This document shows positions 6,709 to 22,840 of a stretch of DNA of 33,778 bases, one piece after another. Every line of letters begins with the position of its first letter. Within the stretch, counting starts at the first letter, position 1. Under the pieces are notes generated by a model. That model did not search any database, had not been told where the DNA came from, and saw only the letters and a list, made by a program, of their open reading frames with translations. The translations under genes and the position numbers were made by a program. Source of the stretch: an uncultured Chlorobiaceae bacterium (GTDB lineage Bacteria; Bacteroidota; Chlorobiia; Chlorobiales; Chlorobiaceae); the NCBI GenBank assembly GCA_903939765.1, contig CAJAIK010000122.1:1-33778 (forward strand), read 5' to 3'.

Positions 6709-7893
6709 ATGTCGATAACACCCGTGCAATTGCTTCGATTCGTTATCCTTTCAGGCATGATCCTTGCTGGATTAAGCACCACGCTTCCGGCAAGGCTTTT
6801 TGCTTATGATTTCAGACCACTTGACGCTGTTATGGAAAAAGCGGTCAGCGATACGGTTTTTCCGGGGGCAAGCCTTGCCGTTCTTTACAAAGGCGAGGTT
6901 GTTTTTCACAAAGCTTTTGGACGGATGACCTACAGCCCCCAAAGTCGCCCTGCTGAAACGACAACCCTCTACGATCTTGCCTCCCTCACCAAGGCAGTTG
7001 CCACAACAAGCATTGCCATGCAGCTTGTTGAACGCGATTCCCTCTCGCTGCAGTCGGCTGTATCAAGCTATCTGCCCGGCTTTGCGAAGAACGGCAAAGG
7101 TCGGGTGACGATTGAGCAGCTCATGCGCCATACTTCAGGGTTGCGGGCCCACACTTTTTTTGCGAAAAGCTGCACCACCCCCGAAGAGCTTTTTCAGGCC
7201 ATTGAGGCCGACACACTGCTCACAGCACCCGGTACCGCCACACTCTACAGCGATCTCAACTTCATGCTTCTCGGCAGAATCATTGAGAAGATCACCGGCC
7301 ACAGCCTTGCAGCTAACTTTCACCAGCGGTTTGCCGCACCGCTCGGTATGAATTCGACCATGTTCACGCCGCAGCCATCGCTCGTCTGGCGAATTGCACC
7401 GGTGGATAAAGATACGCTCTGGACATTCAAGGTACCGCGCCCCCTCGTCAACGACCAGAATGCGGCCCTTCTCGGAGGCGTTGCCGGCCATGCAGGACTC
7501 TTTTCAACCACTGGCGACCTGCTTGTCATGATGAAAATGATCATGCAGGGTGGACGCCTTAACCACCACGACTACTTCAGCCCTGCCACCCTCCGAAAAT
7601 TTCTTGCACGAAATGGCTATCCGAGAGCCGTGGGATGGGATATACGCTCTCTTGACGGGCACTCTTCAGCCGGAGACTATTTTTCAAGCTCCTCTTACGG
7701 CCATCTCGGTTACACCGGTACCAGCATCTGGGTCGATCCTGAACGTCAGCTTGCGGTCATTCTGCTCAGCAACAGGGTCTACCCCTCATCAGAAAACATC
7801 AAAATCCGCAAATTCCGCCCGCTGCTCCACAACAGCGTCGTCGAGTGTCTCGGCCTGCGGATCAGGCAAACAGCCCCTTCATCGGCACAATAG
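6709..7893 (+). CDS. Secreted serine hydrolase, beta-lactamase (class C/EstB) family
   Basis: The 394-residue protein has an N-terminal signal-peptide-like segment (residues 1-32, ending ARLFA). It then shows the serine beta-lactamase/DD-peptidase fold: FPGASLAVL, the SxxK nucleophile motif SLTK at Ser92-Lys95, a YSDLN stretch at 180-184 where class C enzymes have YxN, and GHLGYTGT in place of KTG. The Y-S-D triad and HxGYTG are usual for esterase/peptidase-like members and make true beta-lactamase activity unlikely. A periplasmic esterase, transpeptidase-like or D-aminopeptidase role is more plausible. ATG 6709 directly abuts the mlaD stop, so it is probably co-transcribed with the lipid transporter. 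Its end overlaps the convergent flavoprotein gene by 32 bp. Confidence 0.85.
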   Translation: MSITPVQLLRFVILSGMILAGLSTTLPARLFAYDFRPLDAVMEKAVSDTVFPGASLAVLYKGEVVFHKAFGRMTYSPQSRPAETTTLYDLASLTKAVATTSIAMQLVERDSLSLQSAVSSYLPGFAKNGKGRVTIEQLMRHTSGLRAHTFFAKSCTTPEELFQAIEADTLLTAPGTATLYSDLNFMLLGRIIEKITGHSLAANFHQRFAAPLGMNSTMFTPQPSLVWRIAPVDKDTLWTFKVPRPLVNDQNAALLGGVAGHAGLFSTTGDLLVMMKMIMQGGRLNHHDYFSPATLRKFLARNGYPRAVGWDIRSLDGHSSAGDYFSSSSYGHLGYTGTSIWVDPERQLAVILLSNRVYPSSENIKIRKFRPLLHNSVVECLGLRIRQTAPSSAQ

Positions 7894-9793
7894 GAAGCGG
7901 AACCAGCTTCAGCGACTCCTGACGAAAGATTGAGTTTGCGGCCATTCGCCCGGTAAAAGCTGAGGCCTCCATAAGAAAAACCGGCGCATCAACCTTTACC
8001 CAGTCTCCGGCAAAAAAGAGATTTGAAAACGGCGTTGCAATGCCTGGACGACGCGCATGATCACCCGGAGCCCACCGCGAAAAATTGGACTGCATCATAA
8101 AAAGCTCCTGCAACACCTTCGCTCCAACGCTTTCAGGAAACATGGCGTGAAGCTCCTGAATCATGGTTGCCTTAATCTCCTCTTCCGGCCTGATATCCTT
8201 TGGCGCAATAGCATAAGCATGCAGTTCAACAACGGTGCCGCCATGCTTTTTTGCCCAGGAAATGAAAGGCTCCTGAAAATGTGAGTAAAGAGAGATAGAG
8301 TCGGTGTAGGTATAGCCCGAAACCGTATAAAAGGGAAACTCAGCCGAATCAAGCGGGCGGTCGATCCAGAGACGGTAGACCGCGTAGGGATCCGCCTCGC
8401 CAAGCGAAGCAACCTTCGACTCAAACTCGGGACGGCCCAACTGAGAAGCTTTTACCAATTCACGGGTACCCCGCACGTTGGAAGCCACAATACAATAATC
8501 ACAGGCAAGCAACTCCCCTTCTCCGCCGCCAAAAACTCCCTCTCGCTGCACAACAAGCTTATCTCCTTCCGGCACAACGGCAAGCCTTGCAAGCGGAGCC
8601 TTGGGTGGTCCGCTCACCGGAGTGCCTGTTGCATCATAGCGTCCGGCATGGCAGGGACAGGAAAAACCCCCGGTGAGTGCATCAGGAGTGACCGGACACC
8701 CCATGTGTGTGCAACGCCCGTCATAGGCCGCGTAACCTTGCCCCTTGCGCCCGACCATGACCGGCACACCATCGGCCGTAGCAAACCCGGCAAAGCCAGT
8801 TTGCGGAACCGCCGCAGGATCAAGGCTCAAATAGAGCTTACTGCCACTCTCCGGTGAATCCACTACAACTCCTGAAACCCTCTCCCCTTCAACCTTGAGG
8901 CTCCTGGCGGTGCTCCCCTTCCGAAGCGTCACCCCAAGCTGTTTCAGTTTGGCCTCAAGAGGATCAATAAGGGCGCTCATACAGTCGCGATTGGTTATTT
9001 TGAACGCAAGCCCTTCAGGACTACCCATAAAATAAAAATGGAAATAACGAAGCGCCTCAGCCGCCGACAACACCTCCATGCGGTTCATCGTCGCATCTGC
9101 AAACGGGTGGAGCACCGTGTCGACAAATGCAGGAAGCGCATTGCCATTGCGGCAATAGGTCATAAAATCAATCGAGTCATACTTGCTGAAACTCCTTTGG
9201 TACTCATAGCGGAACAACTCCCCCATTGAGCGCAGGCCTTTGGAATTTTTCAGAAAGGAGATCAAATCAAGCCGGCGTGACTGCCCGACGATAGAGAGCA
9301 CATTGAGGGGAAACAACTTGGGCGTCTGGCCAAAAATTTCTTCGGGAGAGTCTTTAAAAAGAACAGGATAACCGGGAGACGCGGTAAAAACATCCTGCTT
9401 GACGCCTGCATAGGCAAACAACTCATTGAGATTGTAATACTGATCAAAAAAGCCATGAAAGCCGTGCTCCACCGGAAAATGCTCACCAAGGGCATCAAGA
9501 TCCCAGCCGGTAAGCTTGCCACCCAGCGCAGCAGAAGACTCCACAAGCGTCACCTCAAAACCCCTGCGGGCCAGCTCCACAGAGGCACTGATCCCGGCAA
9601 GGCCACCGCCGATGACCACCACTTTTTTTGCTATCTCAAGTTTCTCCCTCCCTTCCGATCCCTCAGGAGCCTGAGTGTAAAACTCCTTTCGCGGCTGATA
9701 ATAGCCAACCAGCCCGGCGGTTCCTGCCACGGCAACAGAGGCACCAATACCCGTGCGCCGCAGCACTGTTTTTATAAACTCACGTCGTTCCAT
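7862..9793 (-). CDS. crtU: FAD-dependent carotenoid desaturase/methyltransferase-type oxidoreductase with Rieske domain (CrtU-like)
   Basis: A 643-residue flavoprotein of the phytoene-desaturase/amine-oxidase superfamily. Residues 1-30 hold a Tat-like signal (RREFIK, then a hydrophobic alanine/glycine-rich stretch). The FAD-binding GxGxxG lies at 61-67 (IGGGLAG), followed by a glutamate-ended beta strand. A complete Rieske [2Fe-2S] site is inserted mid-protein: C361-x-H363 and C379-x-x-H382. The C-terminal FFAGDWV...MEASAFTGRMAA is the desaturase FAD signature. In green sulfur bacteria such proteins include CrtU, which turns the beta-ionone ring of gamma- or beta-carotene into the aromatic ring of chlorobactene or isorenieratene. 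The superfamily call is firm; the CrtU assignment is from memory of the family and moderately sure. It is divergent from nothing nearby and probably monocistronic. Confidence 0.75.
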   Translation of the reverse strand: MERREFIKTVLRRTGIGASVAVAGTAGLVGYYQPRKEFYTQAPEGSEGREKLEIAKKVVVIGGGLAGISASVELARRGFEVTLVESSAALGGKLTGWDLDALGEHFPVEHGFHGFFDQYYNLNELFAYAGVKQDVFTASPGYPVLFKDSPEEIFGQTPKLFPLNVLSIVGQSRRLDLISFLKNSKGLRSMGELFRYEYQRSFSKYDSIDFMTYCRNGNALPAFVDTVLHPFADATMNRMEVLSAAEALRYFHFYFMGSPEGLAFKITNRDCMSALIDPLEAKLKQLGVTLRKGSTARSLKVEGERVSGVVVDSPESGSKLYLSLDPAAVPQTGFAGFATADGVPVMVGRKGQGYAAYDGRCTHMGCPVTPDALTGGFSCPCHAGRYDATGTPVSGPPKAPLARLAVVPEGDKLVVQREGVFGGGEGELLACDYCIVASNVRGTRELVKASQLGRPEFESKVASLGEADPYAVYRLWIDRPLDSAEFPFYTVSGYTYTDSISLYSHFQEPFISWAKKHGGTVVELHAYAIAPKDIRPEEEIKATMIQELHAMFPESVGAKVLQELFMMQSNFSRWAPGDHARRPGIATPFSNLFFAGDWVKVDAPVFLMEASAFTGRMAANSIFRQESLKLVPLPIVPMKGLFA

Positions 9794-10222
9794 AAAGATA
9801 AAGAGAGCGTTAAAGCGAAGGAGAAATCCATTTTCTAACCTGTATGTTTATTTAACGATAATTAGTTTCCGAGAGAAATCCCCCTGTTTTTTGAAAATTT
9901 GACATATTACCGTTGCGTCAAAAACCGTTTTTAATGACCAACAAAGGCATCCTTGTGCTGATCGGGATGCGCCCATAAGCAAACTACTAAATTATGCTCC
10001 AAGAAGCTGCTGATCTTGCTGAATTTTCTTGGGGAAGGTGTGAGGAGAGTATCTTCAATCAAAAGAAGATATGGGGCGTGCTGTTCAGCACCGGGGGGTT
10101 AAAGTGGTTGGGGCCATGACGCGCTCGCCCGAGGCCACGCAAGCTTCTCAAAGAAGATACGAATGTGAGTAATGTCGTCGTCAAGATTACTGATGACGAC
10201 GACATTAATTAATGGTTAACGA
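9794..10222. other. Gene-free spacer between the flavoprotein gene and the autotransporter 3' end
   Basis: No convincing gene is seen on either strand in these 429 bp. The left part must hold the promoter of the minus-strand flavoprotein gene, but no clear -35/-10 pair stands out. The right end contains a strong hairpin (separate entry). The middle (about 9940-10160) has mixed composition and might be decayed coding sequence; no frame is recognisable. Confidence 0.6.
10170..10207 (-). terminator. 14-bp perfect inverted repeat downstream of the autotransporter gene
   Basis: Arms TAATGTCGTCGTCA (10170-10183) and its exact reverse complement (10194-10207) flank a 10-nt loop. The structure lies 16 nt past the stop codon of the autotransporter gene, where a terminator is expected. 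There is no T-run after the stem in the minus-strand direction, so intrinsic termination is uncertain. It could instead protect the mRNA 3' end or be a protein-binding site. Confidence 0.45.
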
Positions 10223-13200
10223 CTACCAATTGATATGGAACCCTGCCATTCCAGCATAGCTTTGCTCCGTACCTAAAGCGTCACACTCGAAATTACCGAA
10301 GAGCGTACAGACCTTGCTGACGGTCAGATTCAACCCGATACTGGCCAGCATCGAATCCACAGGCGGGTGAGCCCCCTGGATCACAAAATCAAAACCAGGC
10401 GCCGAGACAAAGGAACTCTCTGTTGACCGCTCTGTCCTGAATTCATGTTTCCATGCGGCGCTGACCACCAGCGAGAGTGCGGTATCAGCAGTAAACTCCG
10501 TTTTTGTTTTCAGTTGTATACCAAGCCGAAGTGGCATTGAATCGATGATACGATCATTATAGGATAACCCGATCGGGCTCAGCCCCCCCGCCATATTGGT
10601 TTCGGAAAATCCACTCATATGCATCGAACCATACCTTAACCCGGCGAAAGGTGTCACCTCAACGGTATTGAGCTGCTGTTTGTAACCTGCCTCAATATCA
10701 CCACTCAGAGAGTAACTGTGAAATGCACCAGTCAGATACTCATCAAAACCCGGTATCGTAAAGCTCTCTCCGCACGGCGTATCCATTGATACATCAGGAA
10801 TGGATGCATGTCGCAGCTCCTTATTGTTAAAATAATCGTATGCAAGAGTACCGGTCAAATAGAAATGATCCTGACGCATCGCTCCATAGCCGGCGATGTG
10901 CCACGCATCAACGTGACCGTTTGTTTCACGATCATGCACATTGAATGACATCCGGCCATATCCACCGGCGACGCCAATCAGCCAGGATGACGATAGCTGC
11001 TCATCAATTCCCAGAACGAAACCATCACCGCTGTCATTAGCCTTTGCCGACCCGACGATTCTGTCACCGTCCAACGTTCCCTTGCTGCTGTTTCCGGTAA
11101 TCCAGGCCCTCCAGTTGCGGGATGCACCCCGTGGCCCACCAGTTGTCGACAATAAGGAGTTACCATAGACATCATGTGAATCATTGGAAAGCCAGAATTC
11201 TTTCCGGTGTGCAATTGTCTTGAGAAAGATATCGTCAGCCACAAAACCAGCCTGCTGAAGCGCTGAAGTTCCCTCGCCCGAAAGCGAATCATAAATTCTT
11301 CCAAGCGTGGCTACATCCGGCTGGAAGAAGAGCGCCGTTGCGACAGGCCTGAAAGCAGGCGATATCTGGGCAAGTTGAATCTGATTTATTGCCGAACCGA
11401 CCGAATGCTGATTTGGCGTCAGACCTGAAGGGGAATAATCAATGACATAACCCAGGTCGATGTCAGTTCCGTTCGGAGGATAGAGCAGTGAATAGGTCGA
11501 AACCGCCGTGTCAGGAGCCTGAAGAGTGATTCCGCTGTGAGTCAAACCCCCTGCCGCCGATATCAGCACGTTCGTGTGCTGGCCGGGCAACGCATAGCCC
11601 GGAGCCGTTAAAGGATCAACCAGGTTAACCGCTATGGTGCCGGAAACATCGGCTGTGCCACTGACATTCAGCCTGTCCGTAATCTGGTTTTTAAGATCGA
11701 GATCAGCCAGATAGGTACCATTTGCCGTCTGAACAAAATTCCCGGTAAGATCGGTAGTCAGCACATGCTCACAATCGCCGGGCGAAAGAAGGCCCTCATT
11801 GGTCAAGAGGTTGCCTGCACCCAGAAAAACGGTGACGCCTGAGTTGAAAACTGCATCCACCTCATTATAGAAGGAGTTAGCCCCGGCACCCAGATCCACT
11901 GAACCGATTATCGTGCCAAAGTTATCGATATTATCATTACCGGTGTCTGCGCGTACGGCGAAACCGTCAACTCCAAGAACAGTCGTGATTATCCCGTCAT
12001 TATTGAGCTGATTGTCAGCACCATTCAGGATATAGACGCCAGCTCCCTGGCCACTGCCTCCCTCAATGTGGCTTGGTGTTGCCCCATTCAGAATATTGAC
12101 GATAATGTTTCCATCGCCATCTGGCGCATCACTCTGTGCCGTCAGTGCGATCGAATTGACACCATGAGCAATCAGGTTTCCTGTCTGGTTGATAGTGGTG
12201 AGACTAGCTGCCCCAAAACCGCCTGACGAGCCGGAAAAGAGGAATGCGCCCTTCTGTCCCGGAGGGTCGGAAGCAAGACCCACAGCGCCGCCGCCACCAC
12301 CAACGCTCTGCGAATAGAGCGCAATACTGTTGGCACCGGTGACCGTGATGGAACCTGCCGTATTATTGATCGTAACGATGCCGCCTGTGCCAATTCCGCC
12401 ATTGAGGAGGGCCAGACTGCTGGCTCCGCCGCCGGGCTGTACCAGACCGCCGCCACCACCCACCGACTGCGCGAAGATGCCGACGGAGTTGTCGCCGTCT
12501 ATGATGATGGAACCGGTATTGGTGACGCTGACATCGCCGCCCGTTCCAGAAACACTGTTCTGACCACCTATAGCAACCGGCACAACAGCTACACCGAGCG
12601 CCGAGCCTGCTGTACCACCGCCGCCACCCACCGATTGCGCCATGATACCAATCGAGTTGTTGGCATTGATCTGGACGAGACCATTGTTGACAACCGTCAC
12701 ATTACCGCCGTTGCCGCCAGCGCCGCCGTTGCCGCCAAGAGTCACCGAAGCCGTACCGATTCCTCCAATAGTCGTCAATGCACCACCGCCGTTACCGCCG
12801 CCACCGCCCACCGATTGGGCAAAAATAGCAGTAGAATTTGCGCCATTGGTCACAAGCGTGCCTGACTCGAAATTGTTGACGATGACAGCACCACCATCGC
12901 CACCACTGCCACCACTGCCTCCAACACTCACCGTGCGAGACTCCGCCGAAAAATCAGTGCCAGCACTGCCGGCAACCCCGGCAGAGCCACCGCCACCGCC
13001 GATCGATTGCGCCAATATTGCCTGCGAAGCAAAACCATCCGTCTCAATCAGGCCATAGTTACCAACCGTCACCATTCCACCATTACCGCCGCTGCCGTTG
13101 CCGCCTACGATCGTCTTGAAGCCGAGAAGATCTGCGTCAGAGTTTCCACCACCGTAACCTCCGCCACCACCCACCGACTGGGCAAAAATACCGTTGGACA

Positions 13201-16200
13201 TCGAACCCCTGGTCCAGATAGTACCATCTGCACGGTTTATGACATTGACGACACCGCCGTCTCCATACTGGCCACCACTGCCGCCCACGGCAATGGCACC
13301 AATAGCGCCACCGCCTGTGCCGCCGCCGCCGCCGATTGAATGAGCAAAAATGCCGTTTGCCTCATTACCGGCTGTATACAGTTTGTTAGCGTTGTCAACA
13401 GAGACCAGTCCGCCTGTTCCACCGCCAGAACCGGAACCGCCAACCGAAACAATCAGCCCCAACCCGTTAAAGTCAGGATCGGAGACACCACCGGCAGAAC
13501 CACCACCACCACCAGTGGACTGGGCACGAATCGCATCCGACCTTTTACCTGAGGTGCTGATCCAGGCCGTGTTCGTGATGTCAACCTCGCCGCCATTGCC
13601 ACTTGAGCCACCAGAACCGCCGACCGCAACAGCCGATATAAATGTGGAGCCGCCTTTGCCTCCACCTCCGCCGATGCTCTCCCCAAAAAGGCCGATTGCA
13701 TCGTCACCTTTTGTTATGATCGATGGAGTGTCTCCTGTGAGCGTACCATAACTGTAGATCTTCACTGTTCCGCCATTGCCGCCGCCGCTACCGCTTCCTC
13801 CTATGGTAATCGCCCCCTTACCCTTACCGCCCCCTAAGCCGCCGCCGCCGCCTACCGACTGGGCAAAAATACCTACAGAAGCAAAACCTTCAGTCTGGAT
13901 TTTTGCGGTTGACGAGTTGGTGACCGTAACACTGCCGCCATCACCACTGGCCCCGCCATACCCACCGAGAGTTATTCCTGAGAGTCCAGAGCTGCCACCG
14001 TTTCCGCCTCCACCGCCGAGCGACTGGGCGATAATACCATCGGCCTTGTCTCCTGTGGTGAGCAGGGTTGCATCATTTTTTACAGAGACGGTACCGCCGT
14101 TACCCGAAGCCCCTCCGAAACCTCCAAGGGAGAGAAGCCCACCAGCCGATCCACCATTGCCACCACCGCCACCAACCGACTGAGCAAAAATTGCCGCAGA
14201 GCTATTGCCCGTTGTCGAAATATCGGCTGTGGATGTTAGCGAGGGTGTATTCGTAACCGTTACTTCGCCGCCGTTACCCTTTGCTCCTTCAAAACCGCCA
14301 ATACTGACCAGACCTGTGAAACCAGAGGAAGCGTTGCCGCCATTGCCGCCGCCACCGCCAATCGACTGCGCCTCTATACCGTATGAATCAGATCCCGATG
14401 TCTGAATAAAACCATTGTTGGTTACATTGACAGCCAGACCGCCGCCACTTGCCCCGCCATGACCTCCGACCGTGACTCTGCCCGCTCCCTGAATCAATCC
14501 TGTCGTACTGATAGGAAAGGTCACAGCCGTTATGGCATAATCAACATACTCTGCGCCAGGAAACATGCCGTTCAAACCTACTATGGCCTGTCCGCCATCG
14601 CCGCCGCCGCCGCCGATTGATTGAGCCTTTATGCCCACCGAAGCTTTGCCGGTTGTGGTGATAAAATCATGATTGTTGACCGTCACATTACCGGCGTCAT
14701 TGCCCGTACCACCAAAGCCGCCGACATCGACCTGCACATTCACGCTGGGATTCTTGGCAGCCTTGACACTGGTGATCACCTTGCCAAGGCCCAAATGATC
14801 AAACGTACAGGAGGTGGCAAGCTGCAATGAAAGTGAATTGGCACCACCGCCGTTACCACCACCGCCGCCAATCGACTGTGCAAAAATGCCGTTTGAGCCG
14901 GCTCCTGAGGTCAGAATTCCGCCGTACTGATTAACCAGGACATCTCCCGCGGTGTTACCGATGCCTCCCATGCCACCAACAGAAACCGCAACATTTATGG
15001 CTTTTCCGGCCTGGGCATCACCTCCGGCAAGAAGCCCGGTGAACGCTCCGCCGCCATTACCTCCGCCGCCGCCGATCGACTGCGCCTTAATGCCATTGGC
15101 TGATGGGCCTATTGTCTGGATCTCACCATTGTTGGTGACACTGACATTGCTACCGAATCCGCCATCACCGCCAAATCCACCGACAGTAAGACCAACGTTG
15201 ACATTGGTATCTTCACCGGTAGGACCAACCGCGCCGCTGAACGAAAAGCCGCCATTGCCGCCACCACCGCCGATCGATTGCGCCAGAATACCGTCGGAAT
15301 CCTTGCCGGTGACCACGGTTACCGGCTGAAAGATCGTACCGAGCTCTGCAACTTGCTGTTGCTGGATCGAGGAAGAACCTGTGCTGATATTGCCGGTATT
15401 GTTGACGGTGACTGTGCCAGCCTCGCTGCCAACTCCTCCGAACCCGCCCACTGAGGCTGATATCTGCTTCGAATCAGGACCGCCGATAGAACCGGCAACA
15501 CTCAAACCTCCATTGCCGCCACCGCCGCCGATCGACTGCGCCAGTATGCCAACCGAGGCATCGCCGATTGTTGAAGTATCACCGATGCGTGTAACACCTA
15601 CAGCTTTGCCCGCACCTCCGGAACCGCCGAATCCGCCTACCGAGGCAGTGATAGATGGCACATTGTTGCTGCTGGCAAAATTAAAGGTTCCTGCAACGCT
15701 CAAACCTCCGTTGCCGCCACCGCCGCCAAGAGATTGTGCGACCACTCCGTCAGCATGATTCCCGAGAGTCGAGATGATTCCGGTGGATGCAACCGTGACC
15801 GTGCCGGCATCACCGGCTAATCCGCCAAAACCGCCAAGTGAAGCTGAAAGGCTGAAACTGTTCCCTTCCGGCACAGAGAGTGTACCAGCAAAACTGAAAC
15901 CTCCGTTACCGCCGCCGCCGCCGACAGACTGCGCCAGAATGCCGTTCGATCCATCTGCATGGGTCAGGATGTTGTCAACGCTGATGACATCAACCGCTCC
16001 TGCACTGTTGCCGGCAGCACCGAAGCCCCCAACACTGAGGGAGAGAGAGGCTTGGGCGTCTGTCGTCGCAGTGAAAGCGCCGGAGAAGCCGCCATTACCG
16101 CCACCGCCACCGATTGACTGCGCCTCGATACCGTTGGCGCTCTGGCCTGTCGTCTCTATTGTCGCTATGTTATCGACAATGCTGTTCGTGCTGTTAACAT

Positions 16201-19200
16201 TAACCACACCTCCCAAGCCACCGGCGGAGCCGCTGCCACCAATACTTGCACCCAAACCTGCATTACCAAGAGCAAAAGAACCTGCAAGTGAAAAACCGCC
16301 GTTACCACCGCTACCGCCGATAGACTGAGCTTCGATACCATTGGAGCGGTCACCTCCGGTCTTGATTGTTCCGACATTATTGACCGTCACGGTCTTTCCA
16401 TCACCTCCACCGCCAGACATCTTACTAAAACCGCCGATGGAGAGCGTACCTGCGAATTTGGAGCCTGCCGTCAGCCCGATTGAAAAGCCGCCGTTACCTC
16501 CACCACCGCCGAGTGACTGAGCCAGTATGCCGTTAGAATCAACACCCTTCGTCAATATATTGTTATAGCTTGTAACCGTTACCATGCCCGCATCGCCAGC
16601 GGCAGAACCAAAGCCGCCAACGGAAGCCGTAAAGGCACCGCCTGAAGTCGAAGCGCTCAATCCGCCGGAAAATCCGCCGTTGCCGCCACCGCCGCCGATC
16701 GACTGTGCCATAATACCGTTGGAACGTGCGCCATCCGTCTCGAGGGTTACTACTCCTGCTTCTGGCGCGATCAGGAGAGGGATGCCAGCAGTCGCCTGGG
16801 CGTAACTGTCAACCTCAACAGCATCGGCATCACCGCCGCCAGCGCCGAAACCGCCAACAGAGAGCCCGAGAGCAGCCGAGCCTGTCGTAAAAGCACCGGC
16901 AATCGAGAAGCCGCCATTGCCGCCACCACCACCGAGAGATTGTGCCTCGATACCGTTGGAATCAGCGCCCTTTGTCCAGATTGTGCCATAGTTCTGCACT
17001 GTAACTGAAGAGGCATCTCCTCCGATCGAACCTTTACCGCCAATCGAAACAGAACCTCCAAACTCAGAGCCACCGGAAAGTCCGATCGAAAAACCGCCAT
17101 TGCCGCCGCCGCCACCGATTGACTGAGCAAGGATACCGTTGGACTTGTCACCCAGCGTCAGGATATTATTATAGCTTGTTACTGATACCGTTTCACTCTT
17201 TCCACCACCCCCAGTCGCAAAACCGCCAACCGAAACACCGGCGGCAGCCCCCTGCAGAGCAACGCCGATTGTTGCCGAAAAGCCTCCGTTTCCACCTCCA
17301 CCACCGAGGGATTGCGCAAAAATACCGTTCGACTGGTCGCCATCGGTCTCCAGTGTAGTGATTCCATAGACTGGAGAATTAAGACCAGTTGTGCCGTAAC
17401 TGTTGACCGTGACCGCCCCGGCATCTCCACCGCCTGCGCCGAACCCGCCAACCGAGACACCTATTCCTACTGCACCGACCGTAAATGCACCGGAGACGGA
17501 AAGTCCGCCATTACCACCGCCGCCGCCGAGGGATTGCGCCTCAATGCCATTGGAGTTAAAGCCCTTGGTATAAATCGTGCCCGTATTGGTGACCATGACG
17601 TCTGAGGAGGCTCCTGCCGTACCACCGAAACCACCAACCGAAACTGCTCCCGCTGCGCCGATGCCCTCAAAGGCCGCAGAGCCCGCAGCAGAGAAACTGA
17701 ATCCGCCATTACCGCCTCCGCCGCCGAGTGACTGCGCAAGGATGCCACTGGAATTATCGAAAAGTGTGCTGATATTGCCTGAACCGGTAACAACTACCAA
17801 ACCAGCGGAACCGCCGGAACCGCCGGAACCACCAACCGAAACGCCGATACCCGCAAGACCACCGAAAGTGATATTACCGCTGAAACCGCCATTACCGCCA
17901 CCACCGCCGATCGACTGCGCCAGAATACCATAGGCGTCATTGCCTGTCACGCCCTCTGTACCTGTTGAGAGATTGCCAGTGGAATGCACGGTAACCGCTG
18001 CAGCAGAGCCGCCACTGTCACCTTTGCCGCCGATGTTGACACTTGCACCCGCTGCAGATCCAAGCGACAGGCCGATGGTCGAACCTCCATTACCGCCGCC
18101 GCCACCCACCGACTGTGCAATGATTGCACTTGCCTGATCACCGGTGGTTGTAATGTTGCCAATGCTGGTAACGTCCACCGTAGAACCATCGCCGCCACTT
18201 GAGCCATCTCCACCGAGACCGACCGCCGCTGAAACGCCACCGAAAGTAAGGGCTCCCGAGCCCGCGAAGCCGCCGTTGCCTCCGCCACCGCCAACCGACT
18301 GCGCAAAAATACCCGAAGACTGCATGCCGGATGTCTCGATATCACCCGTGCTGTTCACGGTGACACTGCCGCCATTGCCACCACCGCTGCCCGAACCACC
18401 GATTGCCACGGCTCCGCCAAACGATCCGGTGCTGGCGGAAAGCGCTGCACTGAAACCGCCGTTGCCACCGCCGCCGCCGACCGACTGTGCAAAAATAGCG
18501 TCCGACATATCCCCGAGAGTCGTGATATTGCCGACGCTATTGACAATCACACTATTACCGGTTGCACCGCTTCCTCCACTCCCGCCGAGCGTGACCGCTG
18601 CCGAGCCGAGACCTTGCAGGCTGCCGGAAAGCGATGCGGCAAAACCACCGTTGCCACCGCCGCCGCCGATCGACTGCGCCAGAATACCATTGGAATTATC
18701 TCCGCCAGTAAAAATATTATTGTGTAACGTACTATTGCCACTGGTCACACTCACCGTACCGGCACTGTTACCGATGCCGCCGCTGCCACCCAGGGAGATC
18801 CCGGCACTTGCGGAACCACTGAGAGCAAGCGTACCGGCAAAGCCGCCGTTACCGCCGCCGCCGCCGATTGACTGCGCCAGTATGCCGTCAGCGTTTTGAC
18901 CAAAGGTAACAAGAGTGTATTGACTGCCAAGTATTGACTGACCAGCGCCATCAGCAGTAACATCCACATTGCCGGCAACCTGACCGCCGCCGCCCGAGCC
19001 GCCAACACCGACTGAAACGCTGCCCAAAAGAGAAAGTGAGCCGACGGCTGAAAAGCCGCCATTGCCGCCGCCGCCGCCAAGCGATTGCGCCAGAATGCCG
19101 GTGGAGTTATCTCTCCAGGTGAGGATTGATCCGGAACTGTTCACCGTCACCGTGCCGGACGCTCCCCCTGAAGCCCCTTCTCCTCCGACGCCGACACTGA

Positions 19201-21454
19201 CACTGGCAAGACCAATAGATCCTCCTGCAGTAAATCCTCCATTGCCACCGCCGCCGCCGATCGACTGCGCCGCAATACCGTATGAATTGGCGCCCACAGT
19301 AGAGATATTGCTGAGATTTGAAACGGTAACGCCCAAGGCATTGCCGCCAGTACCACCTTTGCCGCCCACGCCAACCGCGATTCCAACGATGCCAGCGCTT
19401 CCGGCGACCGAAAATCCGCCATTACCGCCGCCACCACCAATCGACTGCGCAAGAATGCCATCCGAATTTGAACCAACGGTCGAAAGCGTACCTTTCGTCC
19501 CCACACTAACCTCTCCTCCATCGCCGCCAAAACCACCGTTACCTGCAACGCCGATGGCAATGCTAAGGACTGGATTGGCTGAGGCGGACACAGTAAAACC
19601 TCCATTGCCGCCGCCACCGCCGATCGACTGCGCCACAACGGCGGATGACTGGTCACCGTATGTATTTATACTGTAAGCTGTCGCTGAAAGCGGATCGGTA
19701 TTGTCGCGCCTGATGGTGACGCTTCCGCCCTTTCCGCCTCCGGCACCATCGCCCCCAAAAGCTGCGCTGATCCCTGGGCCAACCGAAATCGCACCGCCGC
19801 CGTTGCCGCCACCGCCACCGATCGACTGCGCCAGAATACCTGGTGAGCTTGCCGAAGCAAGGCCGTTTGTGCCAGCAGATATATTGCCACCGTTGATGAC
19901 AGTTACCGTGCCGCCGTCGGCGCCGCTGCCACCGCTACCGCCTGCCGTAAACAAACCGGCGGCAGTACCGCCGTTTCCGCCGCCGCCGCCGATCGACTGC
20001 GCCAGAATACCTGCCGCCTGCTCACCCGCCGTTGTCAGCGTCCCGCTGTTGGAGACAGAAACTGTTCCGCCTTTCGTTGTGCCCGAACCTTTGCCGCCAA
20101 GGGAAAACAGCGCACCTGAATTTGCACCGTTGCCTCCGCTACCGCCGATCGACTGCGCCTCAATGGCGTTTGCGCCAAGGCCTGATGTTGTAACATGTCC
20201 GGTACCGGCAACTCCAACCTCTACCGTTCCGCCGCTGCCACCGGCAGAGCCATCACCACCAAGGGCAACCGCCGCACTGATGGATTTTCCGGCGTCACCG
20301 CCGCCGCCACCAATGGACTGGGCAAAGATGCCCTGCGCGTAATTGCCGTGCGTCGTGATTGAGCCTCTGGCAGTAATTTGGGCTGCACCGCCATCACCTC
20401 CCGTACTACCACCACTGCCGCCCGAATAGAAAAGACCGAAACCACCAGAGCTGGAACCACCACCGCCGCCAATAGAGCGAGCCTCGATGCCGTAGGAGTA
20501 GTCACTACTTTGCAAGTCACCACCGGTCGTAATTGATGTTCCCGCATCAGTATACACGATTGCCTGACCAGCCTGACCAGCCCCGCCACCGCCACCGGAA
20601 CTATACGCGAAAAGGCCAAAGCCGCCGCCGCTTTGGCCACCATTGCCGCCCTGGCTGAATGCAAGGAGACCGACAGAGCTGTTGCCAGTCGTTGAGACAG
20701 AGCTGCCTGTTCCTGTAAGATTGGCGGTCGCATCCCCGCCATTACCACCCAGCCCCCCGCTGCCAGAGCTTCCACCTAAACCGTATGAACCGCCGCCGTT
20801 GCCGCCATTGCCAGCCAGACTCAGGGCTACCAGGCCAGCGCCATTGATCGCAGAGGCTTTGCCATTGAGGGTTACCGTAACGAGCCCCCCGTTTGCTCCA
20901 GTGTGCCCAGCCCCACCGTTGCCCAAAACATATGCGTTGCCGCCGTTGCCACCATTCGACCCTTTTGATACACCCTGGACTGCGGCTGTTATACCACCAG
21001 CCGGAACAGGCGGAACGCCTGCACCTGGAATGACCTGGTATATCCCGGTATTGACCGTTAAATCCACTGGAGGGCCAGCATTGCCCGATGGTGTGGTACC
21101 TATATCCACTGTATTGATGATCGCTGCTGCAGTTGTACCCTCCGCAGTAAGAACAGCGGTTTTATGACCATCAGGCCAAGTGATAACTGTAAAATAAGGA
21201 TGAAGTAAAGGGTCTGGAGAAACAGGGTTGGTCGTAAATGACTGATCCGCACCATCCCCCGGCACGGCTCCGACCTGAACATCAGCCTCATAAACGCTGT
21301 TACTCAATAAATTTATTACAGTAGCACCAGCATTGTTCGCCTCAACGAGGAGGAACGAGCCGGCAAAAAGGAGAGAGCAAACAAGGGGGGGGACGAAATG
21401 TGCTTTAACGCATGAATTGAAACGGACAAGGGAGAACGGAAGATAGTTGGACAT
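10223..21454 (-). CDS. Giant glycine-rich autotransporter (type Va secretion), 3743 residues
   Basis: A predicted outer-membrane/surface protein. Residues 1 to about 44 form a signal peptide with an extended polar start and a hydrophobic core (VCSLLFAGSFLLV). The passenger, about 160-3100, is a tandem array of roughly 45 modules of 50-85 residues; each has a core close to GILAQSIGGGGGNGGFS followed by beta-strand-like TVTVxSxGxIxTxGD, which suggests a beta-helix or beta-solenoid. About 3220-3330 (GNFVQTANGTY, then DRLNVSGTADVSGT) resembles the autotransporter-associated/autochaperone region. Residues about 3450-3743 are a PF03797-like beta-barrel ending in an aromatic residue (GFHINW), as the Bam recognition signal requires. 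ATG 21454 has a modest GAAAGA site. The gene stands alone. An adhesin or cell-contact role is inference; no enzymatic domain is visible. Confidence 0.92.
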   Translation of the reverse strand: MSNYLPFSLVRFNSCVKAHFVPPLVCSLLFAGSFLLVEANNAGATVINLLSNSVYEADVQVGAVPGDGADQSFTTNPVSPDPLLHPYFTVITWPDGHKTAVLTAEGTTAAAIINTVDIGTTPSGNAGPPVDLTVNTGIYQVIPGAGVPPVPAGGITAAVQGVSKGSNGGNGGNAYVLGNGGAGHTGANGGLVTVTLNGKASAINGAGLVALSLAGNGGNGGGSYGLGGSSGSGGLGGNGGDATANLTGTGSSVSTTGNSSVGLLAFSQGGNGGQSGGGFGLFAYSSGGGGGAGQAGQAIVYTDAGTSITTGGDLQSSDYSYGIEARSIGGGGGSSSGGFGLFYSGGSGGSTGGDGGAAQITARGSITTHGNYAQGIFAQSIGGGGGDAGKSISAAVALGGDGSAGGSGGTVEVGVAGTGHVTTSGLGANAIEAQSIGGSGGNGANSGALFSLGGKGSGTTKGGTVSVSNSGTLTTAGEQAAGILAQSIGGGGGNGGTAAGLFTAGGSGGSGADGGTVTVINGGNISAGTNGLASASSPGILAQSIGGGGGNGGGAISVGPGISAAFGGDGAGGGKGGSVTIRRDNTDPLSATAYSINTYGDQSSAVVAQSIGGGGGNGGFTVSASANPVLSIAIGVAGNGGFGGDGGEVSVGTKGTLSTVGSNSDGILAQSIGGGGGNGGFSVAGSAGIVGIAVGVGGKGGTGGNALGVTVSNLSNISTVGANSYGIAAQSIGGGGGNGGFTAGGSIGLASVSVGVGGEGASGGASGTVTVNSSGSILTWRDNSTGILAQSLGGGGGNGGFSAVGSLSLLGSVSVGVGGSGGGGQVAGNVDVTADGAGQSILGSQYTLVTFGQNADGILAQSIGGGGGNGGFAGTLALSGSASAGISLGGSGGIGNSAGTVSVTSGNSTLHNNIFTGGDNSNGILAQSIGGGGGNGGFAASLSGSLQGLGSAAVTLGGSGGSGATGNSVIVNSVGNITTLGDMSDAIFAQSVGGGGGNGGFSAALSASTGSFGGAVAIGGSGSGGGNGGSVTVNSTGDIETSGMQSSGIFAQSVGGGGGNGGFAGSGALTFGGVSAAVGLGGDGSSGGDGSTVDVTSIGNITTTGDQASAIIAQSVGGGGGNGGSTIGLSLGSAAGASVNIGGKGDSGGSAAAVTVHSTGNLSTGTEGVTGNDAYGILAQSIGGGGGNGGFSGNITFGGLAGIGVSVGGSGGSGGSAGLVVVTGSGNISTLFDNSSGILAQSLGGGGGNGGFSFSAAGSAAFEGIGAAGAVSVGGFGGTAGASSDVMVTNTGTIYTKGFNSNGIEAQSLGGGGGNGGLSVSGAFTVGAVGIGVSVGGFGAGGGDAGAVTVNSYGTTGLNSPVYGITTLETDGDQSNGIFAQSLGGGGGNGGFSATIGVALQGAAAGVSVGGFATGGGGKSETVSVTSYNNILTLGDKSNGILAQSIGGGGGNGGFSIGLSGGSEFGGSVSIGGKGSIGGDASSVTVQNYGTIWTKGADSNGIEAQSLGGGGGNGGFSIAGAFTTGSAALGLSVGGFGAGGGDADAVEVDSYAQATAGIPLLIAPEAGVVTLETDGARSNGIMAQSIGGGGGNGGFSGGLSASTSGGAFTASVGGFGSAAGDAGMVTVTSYNNILTKGVDSNGILAQSLGGGGGNGGFSIGLTAGSKFAGTLSIGGFSKMSGGGGDGKTVTVNNVGTIKTGGDRSNGIEAQSIGGSGGNGGFSLAGSFALGNAGLGASIGGSGSAGGLGGVVNVNSTNSIVDNIATIETTGQSANGIEAQSIGGGGGNGGFSGAFTATTDAQASLSLSVGGFGAAGNSAGAVDVISVDNILTHADGSNGILAQSVGGGGGNGGFSFAGTLSVPEGNSFSLSASLGGFGGLAGDAGTVTVASTGIISTLGNHADGVVAQSLGGGGGNGGLSVAGTFNFASSNNVPSITASVGGFGGSGGAGKAVGVTRIGDTSTIGDASVGILAQSIGGGGGNGGLSVAGSIGGPDSKQISASVGGFGGVGSEAGTVTVNNTGNISTGSSSIQQQQVAELGTIFQPVTVVTGKDSDGILAQSIGGGGGNGGFSFSGAVGPTGEDTNVNVGLTVGGFGGDGGFGSNVSVTNNGEIQTIGPSANGIKAQSIGGGGGNGGGAFTGLLAGGDAQAGKAINVAVSVGGMGGIGNTAGDVLVNQYGGILTSGAGSNGIFAQSIGGGGGNGGGANSLSLQLATSCTFDHLGLGKVITSVKAAKNPSVNVQVDVGGFGGTGNDAGNVTVNNHDFITTTGKASVGIKAQSIGGGGGDGGQAIVGLNGMFPGAEYVDYAITAVTFPISTTGLIQGAGRVTVGGHGGASGGGLAVNVTNNGFIQTSGSDSYGIEAQSIGGGGGNGGNASSGFTGLVSIGGFEGAKGNGGEVTVTNTPSLTSTADISTTGNSSAAIFAQSVGGGGGNGGSAGGLLSLGGFGGASGNGGTVSVKNDATLLTTGDKADGIIAQSLGGGGGNGGSSGLSGITLGGYGGASGDGGSVTVTNSSTAKIQTEGFASVGIFAQSVGGGGGLGGGKGKGAITIGGSGSGGGNGGTVKIYSYGTLTGDTPSIITKGDDAIGLFGESIGGGGGKGGSTFISAVAVGGSGGSSGNGGEVDITNTAWISTSGKRSDAIRAQSTGGGGGSAGGVSDPDFNGLGLIVSVGGSGSGGGTGGLVSVDNANKLYTAGNEANGIFAHSIGGGGGTGGGAIGAIAVGGSGGQYGDGGVVNVINRADGTIWTRGSMSNGIFAQSVGGGGGYGGGNSDADLLGFKTIVGGNGSGGNGGMVTVGNYGLIETDGFASQAILAQSIGGGGGSAGVAGSAGTDFSAESRTVSVGGSGGSGGDGGAVIVNNFESGTLVTNGANSTAIFAQSVGGGGGNGGGALTTIGGIGTASVTLGGNGGAGGNGGNVTVVNNGLVQINANNSIGIMAQSVGGGGGTAGSALGVAVVPVAIGGQNSVSGTGGDVSVTNTGSIIIDGDNSVGIFAQSVGGGGGLVQPGGGASSLALLNGGIGTGGIVTINNTAGSITVTGANSIALYSQSVGGGGGAVGLASDPPGQKGAFLFSGSSGGFGAASLTTINQTGNLIAHGVNSIALTAQSDAPDGDGNIIVNILNGATPSHIEGGSGQGAGVYILNGADNQLNNDGIITTVLGVDGFAVRADTGNDNIDNFGTIIGSVDLGAGANSFYNEVDAVFNSGVTVFLGAGNLLTNEGLLSPGDCEHVLTTDLTGNFVQTANGTYLADLDLKNQITDRLNVSGTADVSGTIAVNLVDPLTAPGYALPGQHTNVLISAAGGLTHSGITLQAPDTAVSTYSLLYPPNGTDIDLGYVIDYSPSGLTPNQHSVGSAINQIQLAQISPAFRPVATALFFQPDVATLGRIYDSLSGEGTSALQQAGFVADDIFLKTIAHRKEFWLSNDSHDVYGNSLLSTTGGPRGASRNWRAWITGNSSKGTLDGDRIVGSAKANDSGDGFVLGIDEQLSSSWLIGVAGGYGRMSFNVHDRETNGHVDAWHIAGYGAMRQDHFYLTGTLAYDYFNNKELRHASIPDVSMDTPCGESFTIPGFDEYLTGAFHSYSLSGDIEAGYKQQLNTVEVTPFAGLRYGSMHMSGFSETNMAGGLSPIGLSYNDRIIDSMPLRLGIQLKTKTEFTADTALSLVVSAAWKHEFRTERSTESSFVSAPGFDFVIQGAHPPVDSMLASIGLNLTVSKVCTLFGNFECDALGTEQSYAGMAGFHINW
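12200..20960 (-). repeat. Tandem coding repeats of the autotransporter passenger
   Basis: About 45 copies of a module of roughly 150-250 bp. The most conserved stretch on the plus strand reads close to CCGCCGCCGATCGACTGCGC and encodes AQSIGGGGG on the minus strand. Copies differ mostly in the hydrophobic spacer after the core, and the core alternates between SIGG, SVGG and SLGG. End modules are degenerate (for example LAFSQGGNGG near the start and TAQSDAPDGDG near the end), the usual pattern for an array that expands internally. The count was made by reading the translation and may be off by one or two. Confidence 0.9.
15900..17560 (-). repeat. Higher-order three-module repeat inside the passenger array
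   Basis: Within the array, modules beginning NGIEAQS occur near 17540, 16945 and 16330, about 600 bp apart. In each interval the modules follow one order: NGIEAQS with a FSxxGAF-type spacer ending in (T)LETDG or IETTG, then a module ending in a SYNNILT/VDNILT stretch, then an SNGILAQS module with a FSIGL-type spacer. The matching positions resemble each other more than adjacent modules do. This points to duplication of a block of about 200 residues. Confidence 0.7.
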
Positions 21455-21874
21455 GATCTTTCAATCGTTGAAATGAGTTAGTAAAAAACATCAAAACGAC
21501 CAGCACTGAGACAGCCTATCAGCAGCGCTAATACATACAGGTAACAGGAGAGCGATTCAGTAATGCGACGCTTTCATGCTACTCCAATAAAAAAAAGGTC
21601 AATTAGTCTAAATGTAAAAAAACGATAACTACCAGTCATAATACGTAAAAAAAATAAATCAATTGTATATTTGTTACATTTATTGAGTTTTTTTCAGCAA
21701 CGCCCTCTCTGCATTTCTTTAAAACTCCGTAGTGATCACTACCTGTGCAACCAGCGAATTGACTGCTGGCGTTTGGTCAATTACTTGGGCTGCAGCATGT
21801 TATATTAGCTACAGAGATTTTCGGTACAACCGCTCATTGGTTGTTTAAGCAAGCTTGCAAACCATCTTCCTCCA
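21455..21874. other. Divergent regulatory region between the autotransporter gene and queG
   Basis: This gene-free, AT-rich 420 bp separates two divergent starts, so it must hold both promoters. A perfect 14-bp palindrome lies within it (separate entry). A TATATT hexamer near 21802 is a possible -10 for queG, but no well-spaced -35 was found. On the minus strand a TTGACC hexamer near 21600 could serve the autotransporter gene; its -10 is poor. No small gene is evident. Confidence 0.6.
21729..21742. promoter_or_regulatory. Perfect 14-bp palindrome GTAGTGATCACTAC, candidate operator
   Basis: The sequence is its own reverse complement over 14 bases and lies in the intergenic region between two divergent genes. 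Perfect palindromes of this length without a loop are typical of binding sites for dimeric helix-turn-helix regulators. No regulator gene is adjacent and no second copy was seen nearby, so the function is a guess. Confidence 0.35.
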
Positions 21875-22840
21875 ATGGCAACCCCTTCCATCACTCTTGC
21901 ACGCCAGATTCGCAAGGAGGCGGCACGGCTCGGATTTGCCGCTATCGGGTTCTCCTCTCCGGTGCCGCAACCCATTGCCATGCAGCACTATACCGCCATG
22001 CTGCGCGATAGGCGGCATGGGGAGATGAGCTATATGGAAAAAAGAATGGAGGAGCGAGCCGATCCCTGCCTGCTCTTTGCGGGCCTGCACACCATCATCT
22101 CTGCGGCAATCAGCTACAATTACCCGATCAATTATAGTGACGGCCTGCCAAAAATTTCGAAATATGCGCTCATCGACGACTATCACACCGTTCTCAGGGT
22201 AAAACTTGAGGCACTCGTAGCGGCCTTACAACTGCTTGTAGAAGAGCCTCTCAATGCAAAAATCACCGTTGACAGCTCTCCTATCCTTGAAAAAGCGTGG
22301 GCCGAAGAGGCCGCCATCGGAAAAACCGGGAAAAATACCCTCTTGAAGGTCCCCTCAGCCGGCTCCTATCTTTTTCTTGGAGAGATTCTTGTGGACAGGG
22401 AGATCGTGTCACCAAAACTTGCACTGCCTAACTTATGCGGCAGTTGCAGCATCTGCCTTGAGCGCTGCCCTACCGGCGCACTGCTTGAACCGGGAAAAAT
22501 TGATGCGTCAAGGTGCATCTCCTACCTGACGGTAGAGCTGAAACGGGAGTTTACGGCTGAAGAGACGGCAATGGTTGGTGAGTGGTTGTTTGGATGCGAT
22601 ATCTGCCAGGAGGTCTGCCCCCATAACCGGCAAGCAAGCATCAAGGCGAATGAGTCGTTTGTGTTGCGGCAGAATCTCCTGAACATCACCACGGAAATAA
22701 TTCTGAACCTCACCAAATCAGGCTTCCGTGAGCTTTTTTATGGAACTCCGATTTTCCGCATCGGCCTCAGGCGTCTTAAACGCAACGCCCGGGCGGTAGC
22801 GGAAAATCTTAATAAGGCAAAACCGGCAACCACGGATTAG
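21875..22840 (+). CDS. queG: Epoxyqueuosine reductase QueG
   Basis: Cobalamin- and Fe-S-dependent enzyme that reduces epoxyqueuosine to queuosine in the wobble position of GUN-anticodon tRNAs. The product is 321 residues, a little short of E. coli QueG (379). Two [4Fe-4S] cluster ligand sets are clear: C188, C191, C194 and C198 (CGSCSICLERCP), and C214 with C241, C244 and C248 (CDICQEVCP). The conserved TVDSSPILEK block (about 131-140) contains the catalytic aspartate of the family. ATG 21875 gives a natural N-terminus. The C-terminal HEAT-like extension of longer QueG proteins is largely missing, which is common. The gene is alone, convergent with the aldo/keto reductase gene. Confidence 0.95.
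   Translation: MATPSITLARQIRKEAARLGFAAIGFSSPVPQPIAMQHYTAMLRDRRHGEMSYMEKRMEERADPCLLFAGLHTIISAAISYNYPINYSDGLPKISKYALIDDYHTVLRVKLEALVAALQLLVEEPLNAKITVDSSPILEKAWAEEAAIGKTGKNTLLKVPSAGSYLFLGEILVDREIVSPKLALPNLCGSCSICLERCPTGALLEPGKIDASRCISYLTVELKREFTAEETAMVGEWLFGCDICQEVCPHNRQASIKANESFVLRQNLLNITTEIILNLTKSGFRELFYGTPIFRIGLRRLKRNARAVAENLNKAKPATTD

Follow-up and report, generated by a model that had tools for sequence, protein, structure and literature searches.

A giant autotransporter of an uncultured Chlorobiaceae bacterium with a passenger of conserved glycine-rich modules and a putative beta-helix/polyglycine-II architecture

What kind of structure is built from dozens of glycine-rich modules strung together in one surface protein, and what might it do for the cell? 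The question arises from a single open reading frame of 3743 aa without internal stops (positions 10,223–21,454), present once in the genome of an uncultured Chlorobiaceae bacterium (no second copy was found) and located in a 33,778-nt window, by which we mean the whole stretch of DNA analyzed here. A first-pass annotation, made from the letters of the sequence, had described the product as a giant autotransporter that may form a very long fibre for attachment, aggregation or contact with partner cells. Our analysis favors, with a probability of roughly 60%, a giant type Va autotransporter whose passenger is a composite beta-helix/polyglycine-II solenoid and which likely acts as an adhesin or scaffold.

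Organization of the gene and its module array

The gene and all of its parts lie on the minus strand, and passenger and barrel are encoded in one polypeptide. Residues 1–44 (21,323–21,454) form a probable export signal peptide, with a basic n-region, a hydrophobic FVPPLVCSLLFAGSFLLV and then NNAGA; this hydrophobic n/h/c pattern was judged by eye from the translation, and the homologue in another Chlorobium genome (G035) has a comparable hydrophobic N-terminal stretch that ends in VFAA. Next come an N-terminal passenger cap, the presumed distal tip (residues 45–160; 20,975–21,322), with no family match in Pfam or NCBIfam and no recognizable binding domain, and about three degenerate modules (residues 161–324; 20,483–20,974), in which the translation contains GGNGG, GANGG and GGNGGDA segments together with VTV and S..L.A.S strands. 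The main array of 44 strict modules (residues 325 to ~3100; 12,155–20,482) leads to a C-terminal stem, a probable autochaperone-like region plus barrel (residues 3241–3743; 10,226–11,734; TIGR01414 and PF03797), which shares 47–65% identity with its closest homologues and weakly matches the solved structure of EstA (3kvn). The autotransporter beta-barrel itself (10,289–11,107) matches positions 1–254 of the 255 in the PF03797 profile (E 1.6e-50; 172.7 bits, where the cut-off is 26), and the last residue of the protein is W. Just 3' of the stop codon, a perfect 14-bp hairpin without a T-run (10,170–10,207; −21 kcal/mol, z −5.2) is a possible terminator. The earlier description of the gene thus holds for its reading frame, its export-signal-like N-terminus (by eye) and its PF03797 barrel; the strand had gone unstated. 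Four more PF03797 barrels occur in the same genome (contigs C108, C10, C96 and C8), in frames of 803–1248 aa.

Glycine makes up 26% of the passenger, which matched no Pfam or NCBIfam domain when scanned whole and piecewise, in agreement with the earlier remark that no enzymatic domain is visible in it. The Pfam scan of the whole protein missed even the PF03797 barrel, probably a filter effect given how biased the sequence is, and we therefore treat the piecewise scans as the reliable ones. These data support a giant autotransporter with a structural passenger, whose architecture is outside the Pfam and NCBIfam models used.

A regular expression for the core AQS[IVL]GGGGGNGG counted 44 strict cores from residue 325 to residue 3048, for a total of ~47 modules with the ~3 degenerate ones, close to the ~45 first reported. 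Columns 5, 6, 8 and 9 of the core are glycine in 44/44 modules, and nothing outside this glycine core is invariant. The modules had been described as near-identical, but they are not: pairwise identity averages 41% (range 20–65%) and Tandem Repeats Finder detected no tandem array at the DNA level, results that together rule out a near-identical tandem array. Five-glycine runs do recur (GGGGG is present in 42/44 strict cores), but the intervals between them, once described as fixed, are only approximately so, with module lengths of 52–86 aa around a median of 62 aa.

The glycines follow a triplet pattern. GGX tracts of at least two triplets number 79, far more than chance would give: when the same residues were shuffled 300 times, the mean was 15.4 and the maximum 26. 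Glycine autocorrelation at lag 3 reaches 1.42, where local shuffles give 1.11 ± 0.04. Each module carries two such segments. Segment 1 consists of three GGX triplets, with first glycines kept in 44/44, 44/44 and 37/44 modules, and segment 2 of four, with first glycines in 40/40, 34/40, 28/40 and 23/40 (alanine replaces the last in 14 more). Most of the variation in module length lies between the core and segment 2 (7–41 aa), while about half of the modules measured have 32 aa separating segment 2 from the core that follows. A higher-order repeat of three modules is also visible in modules 19–24 (residues ~1443–1840), where similarity pairs 19 with 22, 20 with 23 and 21 with 24.

Predicted structure of the passenger and its possible role

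Structure prediction of three to five modules had been proposed as a check, and AlphaFold2 modelled a five-module segment (17,693–18,679) with a pLDDT of 96.0 and a pTM of 0.89 from a 61-row alignment. The modules are therefore predicted to be highly ordered, contrary to the disorder that had been considered as grounds for abandoning the idea. In the model, each module runs from glycine segment 1 through b1 (7 aa), a turn, b2 (7 aa) and segment 2 (12 aa) to b3, b4 and b5 (8 aa, ending ..GI.AQS), giving five strands per module. Both glycine segments are modelled as something other than strand, and their pLDDT of ~98 suggests that they are not floppy linkers. A module modelled alone reached a pLDDT of 56 and formed only the b1–b2 hairpin, so that b3–b5 seem, in this low-confidence model, to need neighbouring modules. 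Searches of solved structures with the five-module model in Foldseek returned no match at E < 0.001; the top match was a weak one to 7jjv, a nine-helix polyproline-II antifreeze protein (probability 0.84, E 0.039, TMt 0.42, rmsd 14.1 Å). Solved PDB beta-helices gave no significant match (E at least 0.04, TM ~0.1) and a fold comparison with viral proteins returned nothing.

GGX is the motif of polyproline-II/polyglycine-II bundles (PMC13243192), and PE_PGRS sandwiches have to retain the leading glycine of every triplet, as it faces inward (PMC10216338). In the present array the leading glycine of the GGX triplets is likewise kept, more weakly in the final triplet of segment 2. Polyglycine-II helices pack at ~4.8 Å, equal to the spacing of beta-strands, and both elements could thus stack in one rung. 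We propose that the barrel would sit in the outer membrane and that the exported passenger would fold on the cell surface, each ~62-residue module forming one beta-helix coil (b3–b4–b5, ending G[IV]xAQS). The chain would then exit the core via one polyglycine-II segment (GGG GGN GGx), form the b1–b2 hairpin of variable length, and come back along a further polyglycine-II segment (GGx GGx GGx (G/A)Gx). A stack of such modules would align ~90 polyglycine-II helices at about beta-strand spacing, and the result would be a rigid, broad, hydrophilic blade ~20–25 nm long with an edge that shows variable hairpins.

The length follows from 4.8 Å per coil and ~47 modules, or roughly 22 nm. Such a blade would be short, the bulk of its mass extending laterally as polyglycine segments and hairpins; a standard beta-helix made of as many residues would be roughly three times longer. 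At about one coil per module, the emphasis of the first-pass annotation on a very long fibre was probably wrong. We infer the polyglycine-II conformation, the single coil per module, the dimensions, the surface exposure and the function. It seems to us somewhat more probable than otherwise that the protein represents a new class of solenoid with coils that each unite a turn of beta-helix, a pair of polyglycine-II helices and a hairpin, whose ~90 polyglycine-II helices in this protein would exceed the 54 of the largest PE_PGRS cited, and which occurs in hundreds of unannotated giant autotransporters from Alphaproteobacteria, Chlorobium and other phyla.

A rather unlikely alternative places two coils in each module, with one GGX segment each, which would give a narrower blade of ~45 nm (about double the length) in which the polyglycine helices are all parallel. 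The order b1-b2-GGX-b3-b4-b5-GGX could indeed be two half-coils, but the low-confidence model of the lone module has a b1–b2 hairpin and no pairing between b1–b2 and b3–b5.

For the composite solenoid with one coil per module, the most likely role in our analysis would be that of a surface adhesin or self-association scaffold (for cell–cell aggregation or biofilm), with variable hairpins lining the edge of the blade, a role suggested by the analogy to known autotransporter adhesins. We judge it doubtful, to about the same degree as the two-coil arrangement, that the protein is instead mainly a shield or matrix component, such as an S-layer-like coat, a barrier to phages or predators, or an ice- or water-structuring surface. 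The weak similarity to antifreeze protein 7jjv, the closest fold match, is consistent with such a role, as are the unrelated lifestyles of the carriers (e.g. soil rhizobia, marine Maricaulis, a methanotroph and a green sulfur bacterium). However, we identified neither an ice-binding motif nor any other specific one, and a low-copy giant autotransporter would not tile the surface as an S-layer does.

Less probable still is an ordinary, long autotransporter beta-helix with coils of ~20–24 residues, in which the glycine runs would be flexible loops and the whole a fibre of at least 60 nm for adhesion. Its attraction lies in the autotransporter barrel and in the NxGxI...SxGIxAQS strands, which look like coils of known autotransporter passengers. 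Flexible loops are difficult to reconcile with glycine segments that have a strict GGX period and receive some of the highest confidence values in the model, and the failure of PDB beta-helices to match the five-module model also argues against this reading. Moreover, a lone module of two to three such coils should pair several strands, whereas only the hairpin forms.

The composite solenoid we favor has partial counterparts among known proteins. Like type Va autotransporters of the pertactin, AIDA-I and Fap2 type (PF03797), the protein has a signal-like N-terminus, a long repetitive passenger, a C-terminal barrel and a terminal aromatic residue; unlike them, it has two GGX polyglycine segments per module, a glycine-rich passenger and no passenger family, and its five-module model finds no match among solved beta-helices. 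Mycobacterial PE_PGRS are surface proteins whose GGX triplets are predicted to form stacked polyglycine-II helices, the largest listed being Wag22 with 54 (PMC10216338). They share the GGX triplet repeats and, on our proposal, the polyglycine-II conformation, but a PE domain is absent from the N-terminal segment of our protein, which differs further in its outer-membrane autotransporter barrel and in its ~90 putative polyglycine-II segments, between which coils of beta-strand and hairpins are interposed. Springtail and snow-flea antifreeze proteins, gp38 of phage S16 and the glycine-rich domain of ALK also contain bundles of GGX-type polyproline-II/polyglycine-II helices, but are small (6–14 helices), without a beta-solenoid, and unrelated.

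The giants Cag_0614 and Cag_0616 of Chlorobium chlorochromatii are hemagglutinin- and RTX-adhesin-like, with calcium-binding repeats (PMC4053972), and, like the present protein, are repetitive Chlorobium surface proteins of very large size encoded in genomic islands. We found no sequence relation to them, and Pfam detected no calcium-binding nonapeptide repeats (PF00353) in the passenger, though it did detect an RTX gene in the same window. An RTX-type or Chlorochromatium-type giant was thereby ruled out, and the comparison once drawn with symbiosis genes of a phototrophic consortium fails by sequence type, those being RTX/hemagglutinin-like (PMC4053972).

We found no paper on the exact motif and, in a literature search that covered few subscription journals, none on autotransporters with polyglycine-II or polyproline-II passengers; an earlier description is possible. 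A review of autotransporters makes no mention of glycine-rich or polyglycine passengers. The protein is not categorically new, since its secretion system is a known one and genome databases hold many unlabelled relatives. If correct, the proposed architecture would bring autotransporter beta-helices and polyglycine-II bundles, two structural worlds otherwise apart, together in one widespread family that goes undetected by the Pfam and NCBIfam models used, and would explain the five-glycine runs as rigid structure rather than linker.

Conservation of the array and distribution of the module

The G035 homologue (3977 aa) shares 81% protein identity with our protein, and reciprocal best matches between their modules were collinear in 45/45 cases. 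Collinearity extended to L035, an alphaproteobacterial MAG (36/36), to a second Chlorobium, G077 (19/20), to Methylocapsa (14/15) and Kaistia (20/23), and to Mesorhizobium comanense (25/29, the largest shuffled value being 14), while the more distant Maricaulis and Novosphingobium had no module collinearity. Matched modules averaged 60–86% identity, versus ~50% when modules within the same comparison were paired arbitrarily. The array of G035 has three extra modules, which lie within the region of modules 19–26, the site of the internal three-module similarity.

The array is under purifying selection. Compared with G035, dN/dS is 0.13 in the array, against 0.17 for the whole protein, 0.22 for stem plus barrel, and 0.26 in the N-terminal 300 codons, the fastest-evolving stretch of those compared, indicating that the array is the most constrained part of the protein. 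The possibility that the array is an assembly artefact (raised in the first-pass annotation) or a decaying, functionless repeat appears very remote: the repetitive gene does sit in a 128-contig draft assembly and in G046 the contig stops within a related copy, but the same modules in the same order are found intact in an independent 10-contig Chlorobium assembly (G035, on an 884-kb contig) and in Alphaproteobacteria, which rules out an artefact for the array as a whole, and near-identical DNA repeats and stops are absent from an array with the low dN/dS given above. The giant gene thus keeps the identity and order of at least 40 modules across phyla, yet enters new genomes as a single-gene insertion, a constancy unlike the fast turnover usually expected of repeat adhesins.

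Within Chlorobiaceae, the module occurs in 4/86 genomes (the source genome, G035, G077 and G046), and in a sample of 148 genomes from the phylum it was matched in the source genome and G035 only. Autotransporter barrels are common in the family (47/86 genomes), suggesting that this way of secreting proteins is native to Chlorobiaceae. A wider search, also proposed at the outset, found the module in Chlorobium, Alphaproteobacteria and other phyla, at no fewer than 237 confirmed loci in GTDB species genomes. Among the matches listed, these loci are mostly from Alphaproteobacteria (Mesorhizobium, Maricaulis, Novosphingobium, Paracoccus, Caulobacter and others), with some from Gammaproteobacteria, Verrucomicrobiota and Planctomycetota, and the recovered ORFs contain 7–80 cores (median 32), several of them ending at contig or locus ends. 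Unnamed giant glycine-rich autotransporters of Mesorhizobium, Maricaulis, Novosphingobium, Paracoccus and other genera therefore have the same module as our protein, and in Mesorhizobium, L035 and Kaistia the individual modules also follow one another as they do in our protein; these autotransporters differ in their number of cores (subject to these truncations) and in their barrels, which are 30–47% identical. In the barrel tree, three Chlorobium copies cluster (91/90) and the deeper forks are without resolution.

In the G046 copy (L114, G046:C329), the array is broken by the contig end at 6823, leaving a C-terminal fragment of 785 aa with 52–56% identity to the remaining Chlorobium copies; counts of giant glycine-rich autotransporters from draft assemblies may for this reason be too low. 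A contig classed as viral (L110, IMG/VR contig IMGVR_UViG_3300002741_000006) encodes a Mesorhizobium-like member that groups with Mesorhizobium in the barrel tree, and is possibly a misclassified bacterial sequence or the flank of a prophage.

The insertion site and its neighbours

The insertion of the gene is clean and involves a single gene. An 11,972-bp block (9868–21,839) holds the giant gene only: in BLAST comparisons with the close relatives G069 and G059, the alignment stops at 9867 and resumes at 21,840, and the flanks are contiguous in both relatives. To the left lies a gene for an FAD-dependent amine oxidoreductase with a Rieske domain (7862–9793, minus strand) and to the right the epoxyqueuosine reductase gene queG (21,875–22,840, plus strand), both identified with Pfam; in ~40/65 genomes of the genus these two genes are 100–305 bp apart on one contig. 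In G035 the giant gene is at a different site (on C4; region L111/L112), which is empty in G083, where the counterparts of G035 locus coordinates 9565 and 21,730 adjoin. The inserted blocks of the two genomes have the coding sequence in common, and not the flanking sequence; the insertions in the source genome and in G035 are two separate single-gene gains or relocations.

The inserted block contains no transposase, terminal repeat or long target duplication, the repeats at the junctions being ~3 bp (GTT) in the source genome and a partly repeated terminator hairpin in G035. The plasmid and phage sequences searched gave no match, the one hit on a viral contig being the Mesorhizobium-like L110, and the 33,778-nt window has no tRNA and no Rfam element; cargo of a mobile element, plasmid or phage was rejected on these grounds. 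Nor does base composition support transfer, as GC3 of the giant gene (0.52) falls within the spread of its neighbours (0.39–0.60) and is no mark of recent foreign origin; its high GC is due to glycine codons.

The far end of the window holds the C-terminal part of another large surface protein (31,445–33,778, minus strand, open at the contig end), which contains Calx-beta, Big_5 and RTX calcium-binding repeats and is a candidate RTX adhesin of the type reported for Chlorochromatium.
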